DNA from: a virus
Virus record (IMG/VR): IMGVR_UViG_3300048687_000070
Location: 24,185 to 88,184 of that record
DNA length: 64,000 nucleotides
Strand: one strand, 5' to 3'
Shown: positions 24,023-59,761 of the stretch, in pieces
Layout: each line of letters starts with the position of its first letter
Numbering within the stretch: position 1 is the first letter of the stretch
Made by a program: the position numbers and the translations under genes
Notes under the pieces: model-generated
The model's input: only the letters and a program-made list of their open reading frames with translations
What the model was told of the DNA's origin: nothing
Database searches by the model: none

Positions 24023-24511
24023 ATGACCATGCCGCTGCCCGAGCCGCGCCCGACCATCCAGGCCGGGCAGCGGCAGCTCTCCCCGGAGACCCGGAAGATT
24101 CTCGACGAGATCGAGACCGTGTACAGCAAGTCCGTACCGACATCGGTGCGCGTTGAGGAAGTGCCGCACCCGGCCCCGCCAGCCGTCCAGCAGCCCGGCC
24201 GGCCCCCCATGAGCCCGCGGGCGACCGGGGTGTCCGTGATGCTCGTCGCCGGCGGCTTCTTCTCCCTGTGCCTCGGCGCGGCGACCTCGATGGTCCTGTA
24301 CTTCTCGCAGGCCGCCAACGAGACCGTCGTCATCACCCTGTGCGCGGCGCCCCCCGCCGTGTTCCTGTCGCTCGGCGCCCTCGTCAAGAAGATCCGCAAG
24401 GCGATGCCCGACGAGCACCACCACCACTACGAGGCGCCAGTGTTCCAGGACCAGCGCACCACCCACACCGAGACCCGCGGCGTGTGGGCGCGCACCAACA
24501 ACACGCAGTAG
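24023..24511 (+). CDS. Two-pass membrane protein (Spd-like)
   Basis: A 162-residue protein with AAGGAG before ATG 24023. A Pro-rich cytoplasmic N-terminus is followed by two membrane segments (VSVMLVAGGFFSLCLGAATSM and VVITLCAAPPAVFLSLGALV) and a His-rich polar tail (EHHHHYEAP). Small two-pass proteins after the pump gene are typical of AICE spread genes; the assignment rests on topology and position. Confidence 0.65.
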   Translation: MTMPLPEPRPTIQAGQRQLSPETRKILDEIETVYSKSVPTSVRVEEVPHPAPPAVQQPGRPPMSPRATGVSVMLVAGGFFSLCLGAATSMVLYFSQAANETVVITLCAAPPAVFLSLGALVKKIRKAMPDEHHHHYEAPVFQDQRTTHTETRGVWARTNNTQ

Positions 24512-51358: not shown

Positions 51359-51714
51359 CGCTATGGGCTGGGCTGGTCGCCGCGTTCGGAACCATCGGCA
51401 TGATCGTGGCAGGAGTGTTCGCCGCGCGCGCCACCACACGGGCAGCATCCGCGACCGCCGAAGCGACGCAGGCTGCGGCGCGCGTACAGGCCGAGCCGAA
51501 CCAGCGGGCCGCGGACCTCCAGGCGTTCCAAGCGATCCGCGACGACATGCAGGAAGAGATCAGCGAAATGCGCGCCGAGACGCGCTCCCTCAAATCGTTG
51601 GTGCGCGCGTTCGCCTGGTACGTGGGGGAGCTCACCACGCAGATGCGCGGCCACGGCATCGAACCGCCGGCGCCACCGAACCGCATCGACGAGTACAACC
51701 GCACCGGAGTCTGA
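51355..51714 (+). CDS. Membrane-anchored coiled-coil protein (spanin-like position)
   Basis: A 119-residue protein starting at GTG 51355. One N-terminal membrane segment (LWAGLVAAFGTIGMIVAGVFA) is followed by an Ala/Glu-rich coiled coil (about 25-90). Such proteins are common after holins in actinophages and may regulate lysis timing. Function not proven. Confidence 0.65.
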   Translation: MTLWAGLVAAFGTIGMIVAGVFAARATTRAASATAEATQAAARVQAEPNQRAADLQAFQAIRDDMQEEISEMRAETRSLKSLVRAFAWYVGELTTQMRGHGIEPPAPPNRIDEYNRTGV

Positions 51715-51716
51715 CC

Positions 51717-51893
51717 ATGCCCGACGCTCAGCCGATCTTCCGGCCGCCTGACGACAGCGCCGCCGACATCGCCTCGCTCGTCCGCCTCGGCCTCGCCGAA
51801 CCCCAGCCCGTACCCGAACCGCCCTCGACGAGCCCGTTCGTCGAACCGACATACCCGGACCCCGTCGACCAGCCGGACGACGAACCCGCATGA
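51717..51893 (+). CDS. Small Pro-rich acidic protein, last of the late operon
   Basis: A 58-residue protein, ATG 51717. Pro/Asp/Glu-rich and probably disordered (DDSAADIASLVRLGLAEPQP). Unknown function. A terminator starts four bases after its stop. Confidence 0.55.
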   Translation: MPDAQPIFRPPDDSAADIASLVRLGLAEPQPVPEPPSTSPFVEPTYPDPVDQPDDEPA

Positions 51894-51896
51894 CAA

Positions 51897-51932
51897 CGCC
51901 CCGCCCTCCTGCCTCGGCAGGGGAGCGGGGCG
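51897..51932. terminator. Terminator at the end of the late operon
   Basis: CGCCCCGC (51897-51904) pairs with 51925-51932, and an inner hairpin CCTGCC/GGCAGG lies in between. It stands between the last late gene and a convergent leftward gene, so it likely works in both directions. Confidence 0.7.
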
Positions 51933-51942
51933 CATCGTCGTG

Positions 51943-52305
51943 TCAGCGCTTGCCGAGCCACTTTCGGACGGCCATCCGATCGACACCGGCCTGCTGTGCG
52001 AACCCGGCTTCGGTGGCGTCGCCGTTGTTGATGCGGGTGACGGCGATCTGGCGAAGGGCGACGAGGGCCTTGCGCTCGGCAACGCGTGCCGCGGTGCGCT
52101 CGCCGGCGAGTTCGGCTACGAGGTCTTCCGGGGCCTCAACCTTGAGCCGGTAGGCGGCGGTGAGGGCGGCCTCTCGGTCGTCGGCGTCGTCCTGGCCGGG
52201 GTACTGCTCCTCGATCTCGCCAGCGGTGTGCAGGAGTTCATCGATCTGGTCGTCGGTGAGCTCGTGGTCGTCGCCGAGCCAGGCTTCGAGTTCGTAGCGC
52301 TGCAT
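51943..52305 (-). CDS. Leftward protein with C-terminal HTH
   Basis: A 119-residue leftward protein. ATG 52305 was chosen because GAGGGGG precedes it closely. The N-terminal part is acidic and helical (QRYELEAWLGDDHELTDDQI). The C-terminus (RINNGDATEAGFAQQAGVDR, then MAVRKWLGKR) is a helix-turn-helix. Probably a DNA-binding regulator of the accessory region. Confidence 0.7.
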   Translation of the reverse strand: MQRYELEAWLGDDHELTDDQIDELLHTAGEIEEQYPGQDDADDREAALTAAYRLKVEAPEDLVAELAGERTAARVAERKALVALRQIAVTRINNGDATEAGFAQQAGVDRMAVRKWLGKR

Positions 52306-52338
52306 GGTGGCCCCCTCTTGGAGCGCCCCTCGCTCCAT

Positions 52339-52378
52339 CTGTAGACTACTCTACAGGTGAGGTGTAGTCCTGTCTACA
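52339..52378. promoter_or_regulatory. Tandem operators with four phased TGTAG/CTACA half-sites
   Basis: CTGTAGA-CTAC-TCTACAG (52339-52356) is followed by TGTAG-TCCTGT-CTACA (52363-52378). The half-sites start at 52340, 52351, 52363 and 52374, about one DNA turn apart. The block is upstream of the leftward HTH gene and 160 bases before a rightward operon. It is a likely cooperative binding site for the HTH or GntR protein encoded nearby. Confidence 0.65.
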
Positions 52379-52476
52379 GGCTTGTGTGTGCTCAAGCCCC
52401 AACCCGGCGGGGCGAGTCGGGGCGTGGAACTCTCGGTAACCCACACGTACCGCCGACTCGGAAGCCCTGGCGATCA

Positions 52477-52513
52477 ATCAACTCCATGGTTGATAATGAC
52501 AGTTATCCAATAT
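52477..52513 (+). promoter_or_regulatory. AT-rich promoter-like region with inverted repeats
   Basis: ATCAAC-TCCATG-GTTGAT (52477-52494) and GATAA-TGACAG-TTATC (about 52492-52507) overlap in an unusually AT-rich stretch ahead of the ribosome binding site AAGGAG for the gene at 52538. TTGATA could serve as a -35 box; the -10 is uncertain. Confidence 0.45.
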
Positions 52514-52537
52514 CGGCTGCAGTGAAGGAGAGATCGC

Positions 52538-52885
52538 GTGAGCGAGTTCACGGACGACACCCTTGGCCGCTACCTAGACCAGCAGGGCGGGATGCGGCGG
52601 GCGCTTCTCGAAGACCCGGTACAGCACGCGCAGACCGAACAGATGCGGGCCCTACTCGACGTTGCCGAGCGAGCCATGGCTACGGAAGGGGTATCCGAGG
52701 ATGCTCGACGCAGGGTCGTGAACCGGATCGTCTGGGGTGAGCCCGAGGGGCGCGTGGACGTGTACGAGGAGAGGCGCAGGCAGGCAATGGCGGTATCCGG
52801 ATCTCTGCAGCCGTCCGCCGAGCAGTTGGCGGCCCTCCTCGTGGACGGCGCGGGGCCTGTGGCCCCCGGCGAGGACTCCGCATGA
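52538..52885 (+). CDS. Small protein coupled to a recombinase, unknown
   Basis: A 115-residue helical, acidic protein, GTG 52538 after AAGGAGAG. Helices such as GRYLDQQGGMRRALLEDPVQ and EQMRALLDVAERAMATEG are seen; no HTH is clear. The stop overlaps the recombinase start, so the two proteins are made together and it could be an accessory or control factor for recombination. Confidence 0.65.
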   Translation: MSEFTDDTLGRYLDQQGGMRRALLEDPVQHAQTEQMRALLDVAERAMATEGVSEDARRRVVNRIVWGEPEGRVDVYEERRRQAMAVSGSLQPSAEQLAALLVDGAGPVAPGEDSA

Positions 52886-53919
52886 CCGCCCTCGTCCCGC
52901 GCCCGTCGTCGGAGCTGTCGACCGACCGGCACGACCCCCGCGACGACTGGCCCGACGAAGCCCGCGCCCTCGCCGACCACCTCACAGGCATCTACGGCGA
53001 CCGCGACCCGCTGCCCACCCTCGCAGGAGGATGGATCGCCCGCCAGAAGAGCCGCCACACGCGGCGGGCCTACGTCCGGACGTTCAAGTCGTGGGAGGAG
53101 TACGCGCGCTCCACCGGCATCCACCCGCTCCAAGCGAAGCTGCCACTCGCCGACGCCTACGCCAAGCACCTCGCCAAGACGCCGACGAGGAACGGCAAGC
53201 CGCCCGCCGAGACCACCCAGGCCCAGGCCCTCGCCGCCGCCGGGAGCTTCTACACCTACGCCGCCCGCCTCCAGGCCGTCGACAGTGACCCGTTCGTCGC
53301 CGTCAACCGGCCCTACGTCGACCCCGACTACTCGCCCACCGAAGGCATGACCGACGCCGAGACGATGCGGCTCATCGAAACCGCACGCGACTGGGCGCCC
53401 CGCTCCTACGCGCTCGTCATGCTCCTCTACCTCACCGGCGCCCGCGTCGACGAACTCCTGTCCCTGAACGCCGACCAACTCGGCTACGACCGAGGCCACC
53501 GCACACTGCCCCTCACACAGAAGGGCGGGAAGAAGCGGCCCGCGCCCGTGCCGCCGCTGGCGCTCGACGCGCTACTCGGCTACCTCGGCGCGCGCGCCGA
53601 CGGCCCCCTGTTCGTCACCGAGTCCGGCCGTCGCTGGACGCAGCCCGAAGTGTGGAAGCACCTCCGCGTCCTCGCCCGCCGCGCAGGCATCCCCCAAGCC
53701 GCGTCGATCAAGCCCCACACCTTGAGGCATCAGTTCATCACTGACAACCTCGCCAACGGGGTACCGCTCCAAGACGTGCAGGACGCGGTGTCGCACTCCG
53801 ATCCGCGCACCACGCAGCGATACAACCGGCGGCGACGGCAGCTCGACAACCACCCCGCATACCAACTGGCGGCCAAGCTTGGTGAGCGGCTCGAACGCGA
53901 AGAAGGAGCGCCTGCATGA
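52882..53919 (+). CDS. Tyrosine recombinase (Xer/integrase type)
   Basis: A 345-residue protein. A SAM-like core-binding domain (about 45-145) is followed by the catalytic domain with R188 (TGARVDELL), Lys in the QKGGKKRP hairpin, H279-TL-R282 (PHTLRHQF), H305 (VSHSDPRTT) and Y314 (QRYNR). All catalytic residues are present. Xer-like size without a long N-terminal arm-binding domain suggests a resolvase for circular multimers, or a second integrase. Element B has its own integrase at 57031. Confidence 0.85.
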   Translation: MTALVPRPSSELSTDRHDPRDDWPDEARALADHLTGIYGDRDPLPTLAGGWIARQKSRHTRRAYVRTFKSWEEYARSTGIHPLQAKLPLADAYAKHLAKTPTRNGKPPAETTQAQALAAAGSFYTYAARLQAVDSDPFVAVNRPYVDPDYSPTEGMTDAETMRLIETARDWAPRSYALVMLLYLTGARVDELLSLNADQLGYDRGHRTLPLTQKGGKKRPAPVPPLALDALLGYLGARADGPLFVTESGRRWTQPEVWKHLRVLARRAGIPQAASIKPHTLRHQFITDNLANGVPLQDVQDAVSHSDPRTTQRYNRRRRQLDNHPAYQLAAKLGERLEREEGAPA

Positions 53920-55344: not shown

Positions 55345-55578
55345 TCACCGGGCGACGACGAAGATCCCCATGCCGTCCACGGTTTCGACGAGGCCTTCGT
55401 CCTTGAGTACCTGGGTGGCCTTGCGGAGGGTGTCGCGGGCGACGCCGTATTCCTGTTCCATCTCCACCATCGACGGGATGCGCCGGCCGGGGGGAATCGT
55501 GCCGTCCTCGATTTTCCGGCGCAGGTCGTTGGCGATCTGGCGGTACGGGGGAACGGGCCCCTCCCTGTCGATGATCAT
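55345..55578 (-). CDS. GntR-type winged-helix regulator without effector domain
   Basis: A 77-residue protein that is only the GntR DNA-binding domain: PPYRQIANDLRRKIEDGTIP, IPSMVEMEQEYGVARDTLRK and EGLVETVDGMGIFV. It lacks the usual ligand-binding C-terminus. Small GntR repressors (KorSA-like) hold transfer genes off in AICEs. It faces a rightward gene at 55729 across a region with an inverted repeat. Confidence 0.85.
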   Translation of the reverse strand: MIIDREGPVPPYRQIANDLRRKIEDGTIPPGRRIPSMVEMEQEYGVARDTLRKATQVLKDEGLVETVDGMGIFVVAR

Positions 55579-56131: not shown

Positions 56132-56371
56132 CTAGCGGAGGAGGTCGCTGACGTGCATCCGCAGCGCGTGGGCAATGAGGAGCAGGTCCGAGTACGTCGG
56201 GTCGCGCACCGCATTTTCGTAGCGCTGGATGCTGCGCCTCTCCATGCCGGCCAGGTTGCCGAGTTCCTCCTGTGACAGATCGGCGGCGCGACGGAAATCC
56301 GCGATGCGCTTGCCGAGCGCGACACGACGGGTGAGTACCCAGTCGGGTCGGGGAGTTCGGCGGGCGGGCAC
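56132..56371 (-). CDS. XRE-family HTH regulator
   Basis: A leftward HTH protein: LGKRIADFRRAADLSQEELG, NLAGMERRSIQRYENAVRDP and LIAHALRMHVSDLL form a complete Cro/CI-type domain. GTG 56371 is used as start (79 residues); an ATG at 56494 would add 41 residues that do not look protein-like. No clear ribosome binding site, so a leaderless message is possible. Likely a repressor of element A or of the accessory region. Confidence 0.7.
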   Translation of the reverse strand: MPARRTPRPDWVLTRRVALGKRIADFRRAADLSQEELGNLAGMERRSIQRYENAVRDPTYSDLLLIAHALRMHVSDLLR

Positions 56372-56733
56372 TCGACAAACCCAATGACTGAAACGATCAT
56401 GTGTCAGTACCCAAGTAGTCGCTTTTCGTGATCTTGGCCGACTGTGGCCGGTCGTGGCGGAAAACGTGAAGAGGCGTCCGCCCCCTTGCGGCATATGCCG
56501 AAACGCCGCAGGGGTGGATCTGCTCTGATCTAATCGAACGCATGTTCACTCGAACGGGCGAATGACGGGCGCGGCCTGTATCCGTTAGACCGGGTAGCGG
56601 GTCGCACCCCCAAGGCGTGCCGGCCTGTCGCCATCGGTTGCCCCCCTCGGTGACGGACCGGCACAGGATGGCTCCCGCATGCCCTGCGGGGGCCATCCGC
56701 TCGATTCGCCTGCGTGAGCTGCGGGGATACGTT

Positions 56734-57029: not shown

Positions 57030-57046
57030 ATCAACTCTCCCAGATC
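57020..57046. terminator. Hairpin overlapping the integrase stop
   Basis: An 11-bp stem (57020-57030 with 57036-57046, one G-T pair) and a 5-nt loop that includes the integrase stop codon. It may end the integrase transcript or be part of the att site. Confidence 0.55.
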
Positions 57047-58284
57047 GACCCCCAGCCCAGATTCCCCATCGCCCGCTCATACAGCAGCTGCAGACCATCA
57101 AGCCGGGCCTGCCGCATCGGCGGTGTGGGATGCCGGTACGTGCCCTTGATCCCAGGGTACTTGTGCCCCATCTGCTCGTACCCCAACACCGGCCGCACGT
57201 CGATCTGCTCCTGCCACGAGTCGTGCGTGTGCCGCAGATCCCGCATCGTCAGGCCGGGCATCAACGGCTCCCACTCCGGACAGGGCGGTCGGCCGCGTCC
57301 GCGCGGGCGTTCGTCCCGGCCGTCCGCCGCCGGGCGCAGCACCTCGTGCCAGTAGCTCCGCCACCACCACTTGCCCTTCTTGGTGGTGAACACGAAGTCG
57401 TGCGGCCACTCCTCCAGATGCTCCCGCAGCAACTGGGCGAGGAATGGGGGCAGGTCTATGTCCCGGGCCGACTTGTCGTTCTTGGGCGGCTCAAGGCCAC
57501 GGAATATCTTCCGCTTCCCCTCCTCGGTGCGCTTGTAGTACTCGGCAAGCGCCCCCTCGTCCTTGTCGACCCGGATGACGGGGCACGTGAAGAACCCGCC
57601 GTCGTGACTCTGCCGCCGCTCCAGCAGTGCGTTGCGGCGGTGCAGACCCACGAGCTCCTCGTAGCGCATACCAGTGAAGGCGTCCGTCAGGACGTGCAGC
57701 CCGTACACCGGGCCGAGGCGCCGCGCCAGCCGGAGTACCACCTCGGGCTCGGCGACCTGCTCTTCGTCGCTCTTCTTCTTCGCCGGGTCCGCAGGCAGAC
57801 CTGTGAGGCGGCGGCCGGCAAGCGGGTTGACAAGGAGGTGCCGGGAATCGACGGCGCCGTTCACGATGCGCGTCATGAGCTGCACGCAGTCCTTCGTCGT
57901 GCTGCGCGCACACTTCAGCGTGCGCGCCCATGCTTCGACGTCGAACCAGTTGACCGCGATCAGTGGGGTGTCCTTCCAGCGTGGAAGGATGTGCGCGTCC
58001 AGCCGCTCCCACCGGTTGATCTCGGTGCGCCCACGGGGTTTCTGTGCGGCCATCCATTGCTTTGCAAAGACGCCGAACCTCTTGCGCGACACCTCAGGGT
58101 CGATCCAACGGCCCTCATCCATGGCCGCTTCCTGCTTGGCGCCCCAGTCCTCGGCCAGCTTCTTCGTCGGGAACCCGGGCTCGCTGCCCCACGAGCCGTC
58201 GGGCTTCTTGTACCGAGCCCGCCACGTGAACTGCTTGGTGGTTTTCCCGTTGCGGACCTTGTAGACCTTCTCTGCGTAGGCCAT
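57031..58284 (-). CDS. int: Site-specific integrase (tyrosine recombinase) of element B
   Basis: A 417-residue leftward protein. An arm-binding domain (about 10-55: KQFTWRARYKKPDGSWGSEP) and SAM-like domain (65-165) precede the catalytic domain with R207 (GMRYEEL), K271 (PKNDKSAR), R351-H352 (DLRHTH), H374 (MGHKYPG) and Y383 (GTYRHP). The His of the usual HxxR motif is replaced by Arg (R348-DL-R351), a tolerated variant in some integrases. Lies at the left edge of element B, next to its repressor. Confidence 0.9.
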   Translation of the reverse strand: MAYAEKVYKVRNGKTTKQFTWRARYKKPDGSWGSEPGFPTKKLAEDWGAKQEAAMDEGRWIDPEVSRKRFGVFAKQWMAAQKPRGRTEINRWERLDAHILPRWKDTPLIAVNWFDVEAWARTLKCARSTTKDCVQLMTRIVNGAVDSRHLLVNPLAGRRLTGLPADPAKKKSDEEQVAEPEVVLRLARRLGPVYGLHVLTDAFTGMRYEELVGLHRRNALLERRQSHDGGFFTCPVIRVDKDEGALAEYYKRTEEGKRKIFRGLEPPKNDKSARDIDLPPFLAQLLREHLEEWPHDFVFTTKKGKWWWRSYWHEVLRPAADGRDERPRGRGRPPCPEWEPLMPGLTMRDLRHTHDSWQEQIDVRPVLGYEQMGHKYPGIKGTYRHPTPPMRQARLDGLQLLYERAMGNLGWGSIWES

Positions 58285-58807: not shown

Positions 58808-59338
58808 TCACGTCTCTTGAGGATTTTCTGTCTCAGATGCGACTCCCTGCAGATGCCGCCGGGCCTTGCGGTATTGCTGCCATCGCCGGTCGAGCTCTTC
58901 TTCGCTCATACCCTCAGCGCCCTTGAGGACCACGATGATCCTCGTGTCGTCATCGTCATCGTCGCCGCCGAGGTGGATGACGGCGCTGTCCAGCGTCTCC
59001 CCGGAGCGGAGCTCCAGCTCGACGGCCGGCGGCAGGTTCGAGCGGACGGCACCCGAGGCGGCAGGCTCGGGGGGCTGCGGGGCGGCCTGAGGGGTGGGGG
59101 CGTCGCCGTCGAGGACGGCGTCGGGGGAGCTCTCAGTCCAGCCGACAAGACGCGCGTAGGCGCGCATCGTATTGGTGACCTTGGTGAACGGTTTGCCGTT
59201 CGACTGCCGGCCTCGCTCGATGGCCTGGATCGGTGTGCGGCTGACGTGCAGCTGCTCAGCAGCTTGGACCTGCGAGAGGCCGAGTGTTTCGCGGGCGTCG
59301 GCGAGGGCTCGGCCGAGCCGCTTCCAGTCTCGTTCCAT
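58808..59338 (-). CDS. XRE-family immunity repressor of element B
   Basis: A 176-residue leftward protein. HTH at about 5-70: LGRALADARETLGLSQVQAA, EQLHVSRTPIQAIERGRQSN and NTMRAYARLVGW. A Pro-rich linker leads to a C-terminal domain with an Asp run (GGDDDDDDTRIIVVL) and helical end. It is divergent from the early operon, as is normal for a CI-type repressor; the inverted CCATGCAACCC sites upstream are its likely operators. Confidence 0.8.
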   Translation of the reverse strand: MERDWKRLGRALADARETLGLSQVQAAEQLHVSRTPIQAIERGRQSNGKPFTKVTNTMRAYARLVGWTESSPDAVLDGDAPTPQAAPQPPEPAASGAVRSNLPPAVELELRSGETLDSAVIHLGGDDDDDDTRIIVVLKGAEGMSEEELDRRWQQYRKARRHLQGVASETENPQET

Positions 59339-59436: not shown

Positions 59437-59521
59437 GGCGCGTATCGATCGAAGGTGCCTATGGGGTGTTCGACGTCAGTAAGGGCTCTAAAAAAGAGCA
59501 TTGATGTGGCGTTGATGCTTG

Positions 59522-59545
59522 CCTAGCGTGCCATTGGCGGCTAGG
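59522..59545. promoter_or_regulatory. Inverted repeat before the Cro-like gene
   Basis: CCTAGC (59522-59527) and GCTAGG (59540-59545) surround GTGCCATTGGCG, which holds a second small palindrome (GCC-ATT-GGC). It ends ten bases before the GTG start at 59555 and may be an operator or translation control site. Confidence 0.45.
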
Positions 59546-59554
59546 TTTTGTGGC

Positions 59555-59761
59555 GTGAGACCGCACTCCGGCGCTATCCGCTACAGACGGGAGGCTCTCA
59601 AGATGAGCCTTGCAGCACTATCCGCCCGCACCGGCATCCACGAGAGTCACCTCTCCAAGGTGGAGCACGGCAAGGCCGGACTGGGCGACACGAACATCCA
59701 CCGACTGGCGGACGCCCTGGGTGTCACCCCCAACGACATCACCCACGAGGAGAAGCCGTGA
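59555..59761 (+). CDS. Cro-like XRE protein
   Basis: A 68-residue protein that is just an HTH domain: GAIRYRREALKMSLAALSAR, GIHESHLSKVEHGKAGLGDT, then RLADALGVTPNDIT. First gene of element B's early operon and divergent from the repressor, so a Cro-like switch partner. GTG 59555 has no good ribosome binding site; translation may be leaderless. Confidence 0.75.
   Translation: MRPHSGAIRYRREALKMSLAALSARTGIHESHLSKVEHGKAGLGDTNIHRLADALGVTPNDITHEEKP

Follow-up and report, generated by a model that had tools for sequence, protein, structure and literature searches.

A leftward promoter with two built-in palindromes accompanies phrog_2311 HTH genes in actinobacterial mobile elements and resembles the ESAS of cluster K mycobacteriophages

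Between a leftward helix-turn-helix (HTH) gene and a rightward recombinase operon, a virus record of 88,184 bases from IMG/VR (IMGVR_UViG_3300048687_000070) carries four phased TGTAG/CTACA half-sites, which raises the question of which gene they control and which protein binds them. The window analyzed here is the 64,000-nucleotide stretch at positions 24,185 to 88,184 of that record; it belongs to a Streptomyces-type phage, parts of which are related to ZL12 and VWB. Read directly on the plus strand, the half-sites start at 52340, 52351, 52363 and 52374, and positions 52340-52378 follow the pattern TGTAG-N6-CTACA-N7-TGTAG-N6-CTACA, with the letters TGTAGACTACTCTACA-GGTGAGG-TGTAGTCCTGTCTACA. 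The preliminary description had claimed spacings of 11, 12 and 11 bases, two inverted pairs and a shared helical face, and these positions were confirmed exactly.

The looser pattern TGTAG-N4..8-CTACA occurs twice in the window, both times within the block, against an expectation of 0 from 100 dinucleotide-preserving shuffles of the window. A search for TGTAG-N6-CTACA, as proposed earlier, matched only at the block in the window and in the 88-kb record, and no further exact copy of the block was found in the whole record. In a matrix scan of the window the two sites scored 25.5 and 23.0 bits, with the next best place at −2.6; the best score among 20 simulated sequences was 7.3. A chance origin of the block was ruled out by the shuffles together with the matrix scan of simulated sequences. 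The two 16-bp units differ from each other, the block scoring 52.0 when read leftward versus 40.3 rightward. The features discussed below are as follows.

52340..52378, minus strand: operator-promoter block of 39 bp, consisting of palindrome O1, a 7-bp spacer and palindrome O2, reading leftward
52363..52378, minus strand: putative operator O1 (unit 1), TGTAGACAGGACTACA on the minus strand, overlapping the −35 region
52371..52376, minus strand: −35 hexamer TAGACA, 17 bp from the −10, in the sole promoter of the scan
52340..52355, minus strand: putative operator O2 (unit 2), TGTAGAGTAGTCTACA on the minus strand, overlapping the −10 region
52348..52353, minus strand: −10 hexamer TAGAGT, from the promoter scan and conservation of its final T
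52340..52340, minus strand: predicted transcription start at the final A of the block, placed 7 nt from the −10
52320..52336, minus strand: 5'-UTR hairpin GGAGCG-AGGGG-CGCTCC, common to about 20 Streptomyces-type loci
51943..52305, minus strand: HTH gene of 120 aa, phrog_2311, presumed autoregulator
51958..51981, minus strand: recognition helix, residues 109-116 (DRMAVRKW)
51973-51975, minus strand: Met111, which changes together with half-site base 4

A consensus scan of 51700-52700 returned exactly one promoter, TAGACA-17-TAGAGT on the minus strand (52376-52348), where 0.1 were expected; unit 1 carries its −35 and unit 2 its −10. The hexamers are also visible in the conservation of the 64 related blocks described below. 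C7 of unit 1 is kept in 61 of them, although neither the search nor the palindrome required it, and T8 of unit 2, which lies outside the palindromic arms and was likewise not required by the search, is kept in 63; these near-fixed bases are at the positions expected of a −35 and of the last T of a −10. Aligned blocks are 39 or 40 bp long, giving a hexamer spacing of 17 or 18 bp. In 29 of the 64, the block ends on the A of an ATG, which fits a transcription start at that base and a leaderless message. The window instead has a leader of ~35 bases between the predicted start and the ATG at 52305. This leader includes a small hairpin as well as the ribosome site GAGGGGG; covariation in the hairpin is weak, with one compensatory change only in 5 pairs among 16 sequences. 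Judged from its sequence, the block combines a promoter with two putative operators and is oriented towards the HTH gene on its left (51943-52305). The preliminary description had left either neighbour as the target, and only the leftward HTH gene held up: the scan of the region found no promoter other than the leftward one, and the rightward operon is poorly linked to the block, with a recombinase homologue at only 5 of the 64 block loci and the first gene of the operon at none.

That operon begins at 52538 with a gene for a 115-aa protein, followed by a tyrosine recombinase gene. An AT-rich stretch with the inverted repeat GATAA-N6-TTATC (52490-52515) lies just 5' of the gene at 52538 and is a candidate for a separate promoter or operator of the recombinase operon. 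The element encodes two tyrosine recombinases or integrases, at 52882-53919 (XerC/D-like) and at 57031-58284. On the leftward side, the HTH gene stands alone behind the block promoter. An in-frame ATG at 52338, upstream of the 52305 start, would give a protein of 131 aa; at loci where a GNAT gene comes first, this ATG is out of frame with that gene.

The 120-aa HTH protein has no Pfam or NCBIfam match but matches the phrog_2311 profile (E 5e-16), and so does every aligned member (35 of 35, counting this protein). The PHROGs library annotates this family as an HTH DNA binding protein, without a binding site or specific function. The AlphaFold2 model is all-helical (mean pLDDT 96.2), with a long helix at residues 59-93 and a C-terminal HTH at 99-116, and confidently places Met111 at the start of the recognition helix. 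Sequence and fold searches of the PDB gave short HTH matches only (IstA, DeoR, Cgl2762) and no whole-protein match.

Lack of conservation in related elements, one of the outcomes that the preliminary description had named as fatal to its proposal, did not occur. Pattern scans of viral and genome contigs recovered the 39/40-bp block at 64 distinct actinobacterial loci in viruses, plasmids and chromosomes of many genera; these loci were collected mostly by the block pattern itself. A phrog_2311-family HTH protein with the recognition helix DRM is encoded at 61 of them. Two of the three remaining loci lie at contig or locus ends, and the third is on a multi-block contig with the HTH gene elsewhere on it. 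The HTH gene is mostly on the same strand just downstream of the block, alone or behind another small gene, whereas homologues of the other proteins of the window neighbourhood occur at 0 to 12 of the 64 loci. When the search started from the protein, five of six homologues without an exact block proved to have a degenerate one, keeping 21-23 of the 24 arm bases, and degenerate blocks were also found at plasmid homologues and in Gordonia phage Thimann. Exceptions were a homologue inside an operon without a block, in which GRS replaces DRM (L094), one with no detectable twin site (L135), and one with DRS that has one TGTTG-like and one TGTAG palindrome (L179). At the distant homologues with NRN helices (L192, L204), the scanned stretch contained no twin site. 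Pattern matches of the tandem-repeat, AT-rich and cyanophage-like kinds (L003, L005, L008, L016, L064, L102, L104, L108, L110, L118, L123, L223, L240 and similar) were excluded, as none was found to come with an HTH homologue. A literature search by the motif letters returned nothing relevant.

Some elements carry more than one block. A 54.5-kb viral contig has three, each followed directly by an ATG (L011 at 5630 and 8827, L051 at 2960), and with the one HTH gene found on it would make up a small regulon. A Nocardia paucivorans contig (L121, 5928-6988) has three blocks within 1.1 kb, 5' of an HTH gene and two small genes. The visible target in the present phage is the HTH gene only, while in these two contigs and in cluster K several genes have a site. 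The first genes behind the blocks vary, being GNAT-like acetyltransferases or members of several families without a Pfam match; two such kinds and a GNAT gave no PADLOC match. On a Streptomyces plasmid, a putative ATP-grasp-modified RiPP gene cluster lies near a GNAT-HTH operon (L128, 4398-4592).

Extended start-associated sequences (ESAS) were described in cluster K mycobacteriophages in 2011 (Pope 2011, PMC3203893). In Adephagia, which has seven by the published count, they were described in 2024 as SigA-like promoters with an inverted repeat; repression was suggested, the identity of the regulator was unclear, and the immunity repressor was considered unlikely (PMC11373665). Distant homologues of the window protein, at about 30-40 percent identity, occur in 229 phage records, nearly all mycobacterial. 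In the mycobacteriophages they sit between the lysis genes and the integrase, as does the HTH gene in the window, with an ESAS upstream; one ESAS copy precedes the phrog_2311 HTH gene in Adephagia (gp36), ZoeJ (gp36) and Pixie (gp38). The window block resembles the ESAS in being a SigA-like promoter (TAGACA-17-TAGAGT) beneath inverted repeats, the ESAS having a spacing of 17-18 bp and preceding small genes. The ESAS of Pixie and ZoeJ are pairs of TGTTG-N6-CAACA palindromes, which is the block geometry with one base pair changed per half-site; the two 16-bp palindromes of the phages with a DRL helix share its 5-N6-5 arrangement. However, the half-site is TGTAG in the window and TGTTG in cluster K, the operator starts are spaced 23/24 in the block compared with 28 or 31 5' of the cluster K HTH gene, and this 88-kb record has one block, with up to three in relatives such as the contigs above (L011 with L051; L121), whereas ESAS come in several copies per genome. 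The 13-bp SAS found at gene starts, GGGATAGGAGCCC, was not seen in the window, where the 52305 start is preceded by AGAGGGGGCCACC. The ESAS of Microbacterium cluster EF phages, centred on GTAGAG (PMC7302621), were rejected as the same system, because AnnaSerena 20000-56707 contained neither an HTH homologue nor a TGTAG-N6-CTACA site.

The difference in half-site is matched by a difference in the recognition helix. Proteins encoded at TGTAG blocks begin this helix with DRM, and cluster K proteins with DRL or NRL; the exception in cluster K is Aminay, whose protein has DRM and whose sites have TGTAG-type halves. A motif-blind finder of twin palindromes returned GTAG arms 5' of DRM proteins and GTTG arms 5' of DRL proteins. 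Scanning 2.9 million viral contigs revealed twin TGTTG-N6-CAACA sites in 17 of 17 DRL contigs and 0 of 22 NRL contigs, and the remaining matches were two unrelated AT-rich contigs without an HTH homologue. The NRL contigs have mixed TGTTG/TGTAT half-sites (TGTTG-N6-ATACA and TGTAT-N6-CAACA), and in M. abscessus prophages DRM goes with GGTAG or AGTAG palindromes. In a tree built with the specificity residues masked, the M-to-L and D-to-N changes each occurred once, so the matching with the operator rests on two events rather than many, and the p value obtained for this association exaggerates the independence of the cases. It is therefore taken, from sequence comparison, as two matched events together with strong conservation. 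This recurring pair of switch and protein points to the phrog_2311 HTH protein as a candidate for the ESAS regulator.

Our preferred reading, to which we assign a probability of about 0.84, is that the block is the promoter of the HTH gene with built-in operators, to which the HTH protein binds as dimers and thereby represses its own synthesis. Two 16-bp operators would be built into the −35 and −10 regions of the leftward promoter, and the phrog_2311 protein would occupy each as a dimer, the two dimers lying on the same face of the helix about two turns from each other and perhaps binding cooperatively. Together they would exclude RNA polymerase and switch the promoter off. In related elements the protein may also control small genes that have a copy of the block or lie in the same operon.

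The most serious alternative, though an unlikely one, is that the HTH protein activates the operon through the block. Expression of gp36-gp38, the HTH gene and its neighbours, in ZoeJ and Adephagia lysogens (PMC11373665) indicates that the HTH promoter is not fully silent; nevertheless, Adephagia lysogens do not express ESAS genes 75, 76 and 92, even though they express gp36 (PMC11373665). Both operators, moreover, overlap the −35, the −10 and the start, the seat of RNA polymerase. The usual site of an activator is upstream of the −35. Less probable still is binding by another regulator of the element, with the HTH gene a mere target. The preliminary description had proposed the products of 51943-52305, 55345 and 56132 as binders, and the present data strongly favour the HTH protein over the other two. 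The GntR-type protein (55345-55578) and the XRE-type proteins (56132-56494, 58808-59338, 59519-59761) have genuine DNA-binding domains in the same element, but their homologues lie within 5 kb at 12, 6, 2 and 2 of the 64 block loci, respectively, versus 61 for the HTH family, and their binding would leave the joint change of half-site and HTH recognition helix unexplained.

The occurrence of the block in many genera would suit a conserved actinobacterial host regulator, yet this explanation is very hard to sustain. Seventeen whole genomes (4-10 Mb) have the block one to three times each, adjoining an HTH gene where inspected, which gives no sign of a dispersed host regulon, and the phrog_2311 family is found in a small fraction only of 395 actinomycete genomes. 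We consider it equally implausible that the block serves in recombination, partition or replication, as a site linked to the tyrosine recombinase at 52882 or to plasmid-like maintenance. A recombinase gene does lie about 500 bp away, and plasmid-like relatives exist; against this stand the recombinase homologue at only 5 of 64 loci, the fixed promoter position of the block, which often ends on an ATG, and the copies that precede several genes on a single contig (L011 with L051; L121).

Autorepression from within a promoter also invites comparison with the Aca autorepressors of anti-CRISPR operons (PMC9410906). Shared with Aca are a small HTH protein and inverted repeats within the core promoter, both found in the window, and an HTH gene that frequently closes an operon of otherwise unrelated small genes, as at some of the block loci. 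Unlike Aca, the HTH of the window protein is C-terminal, its gene is alone behind the promoter, and no known acr gene was identified. We tentatively suggest, at somewhat less than even odds, that phrog_2311 proteins are a hitherto unassigned class of mobile-element regulator across actinobacteria, controlling accessory and possibly counter-defence genes through twin-palindrome promoters, and are the missing ESAS regulator, with a rule by which Met would read GTAG and Leu GTTG. The comparison names a candidate ESAS regulator, the phrog_2311 HTH protein (Adephagia gp36, ZoeJ gp36), whose binding can be checked with a built-in specificity control. It would extend the range of the element beyond a single mycobacteriophage cluster, to actinobacterial viruses, plasmids and prophages spanning many genera, and the block may serve as a guide to uncharacterised small genes under the same control.
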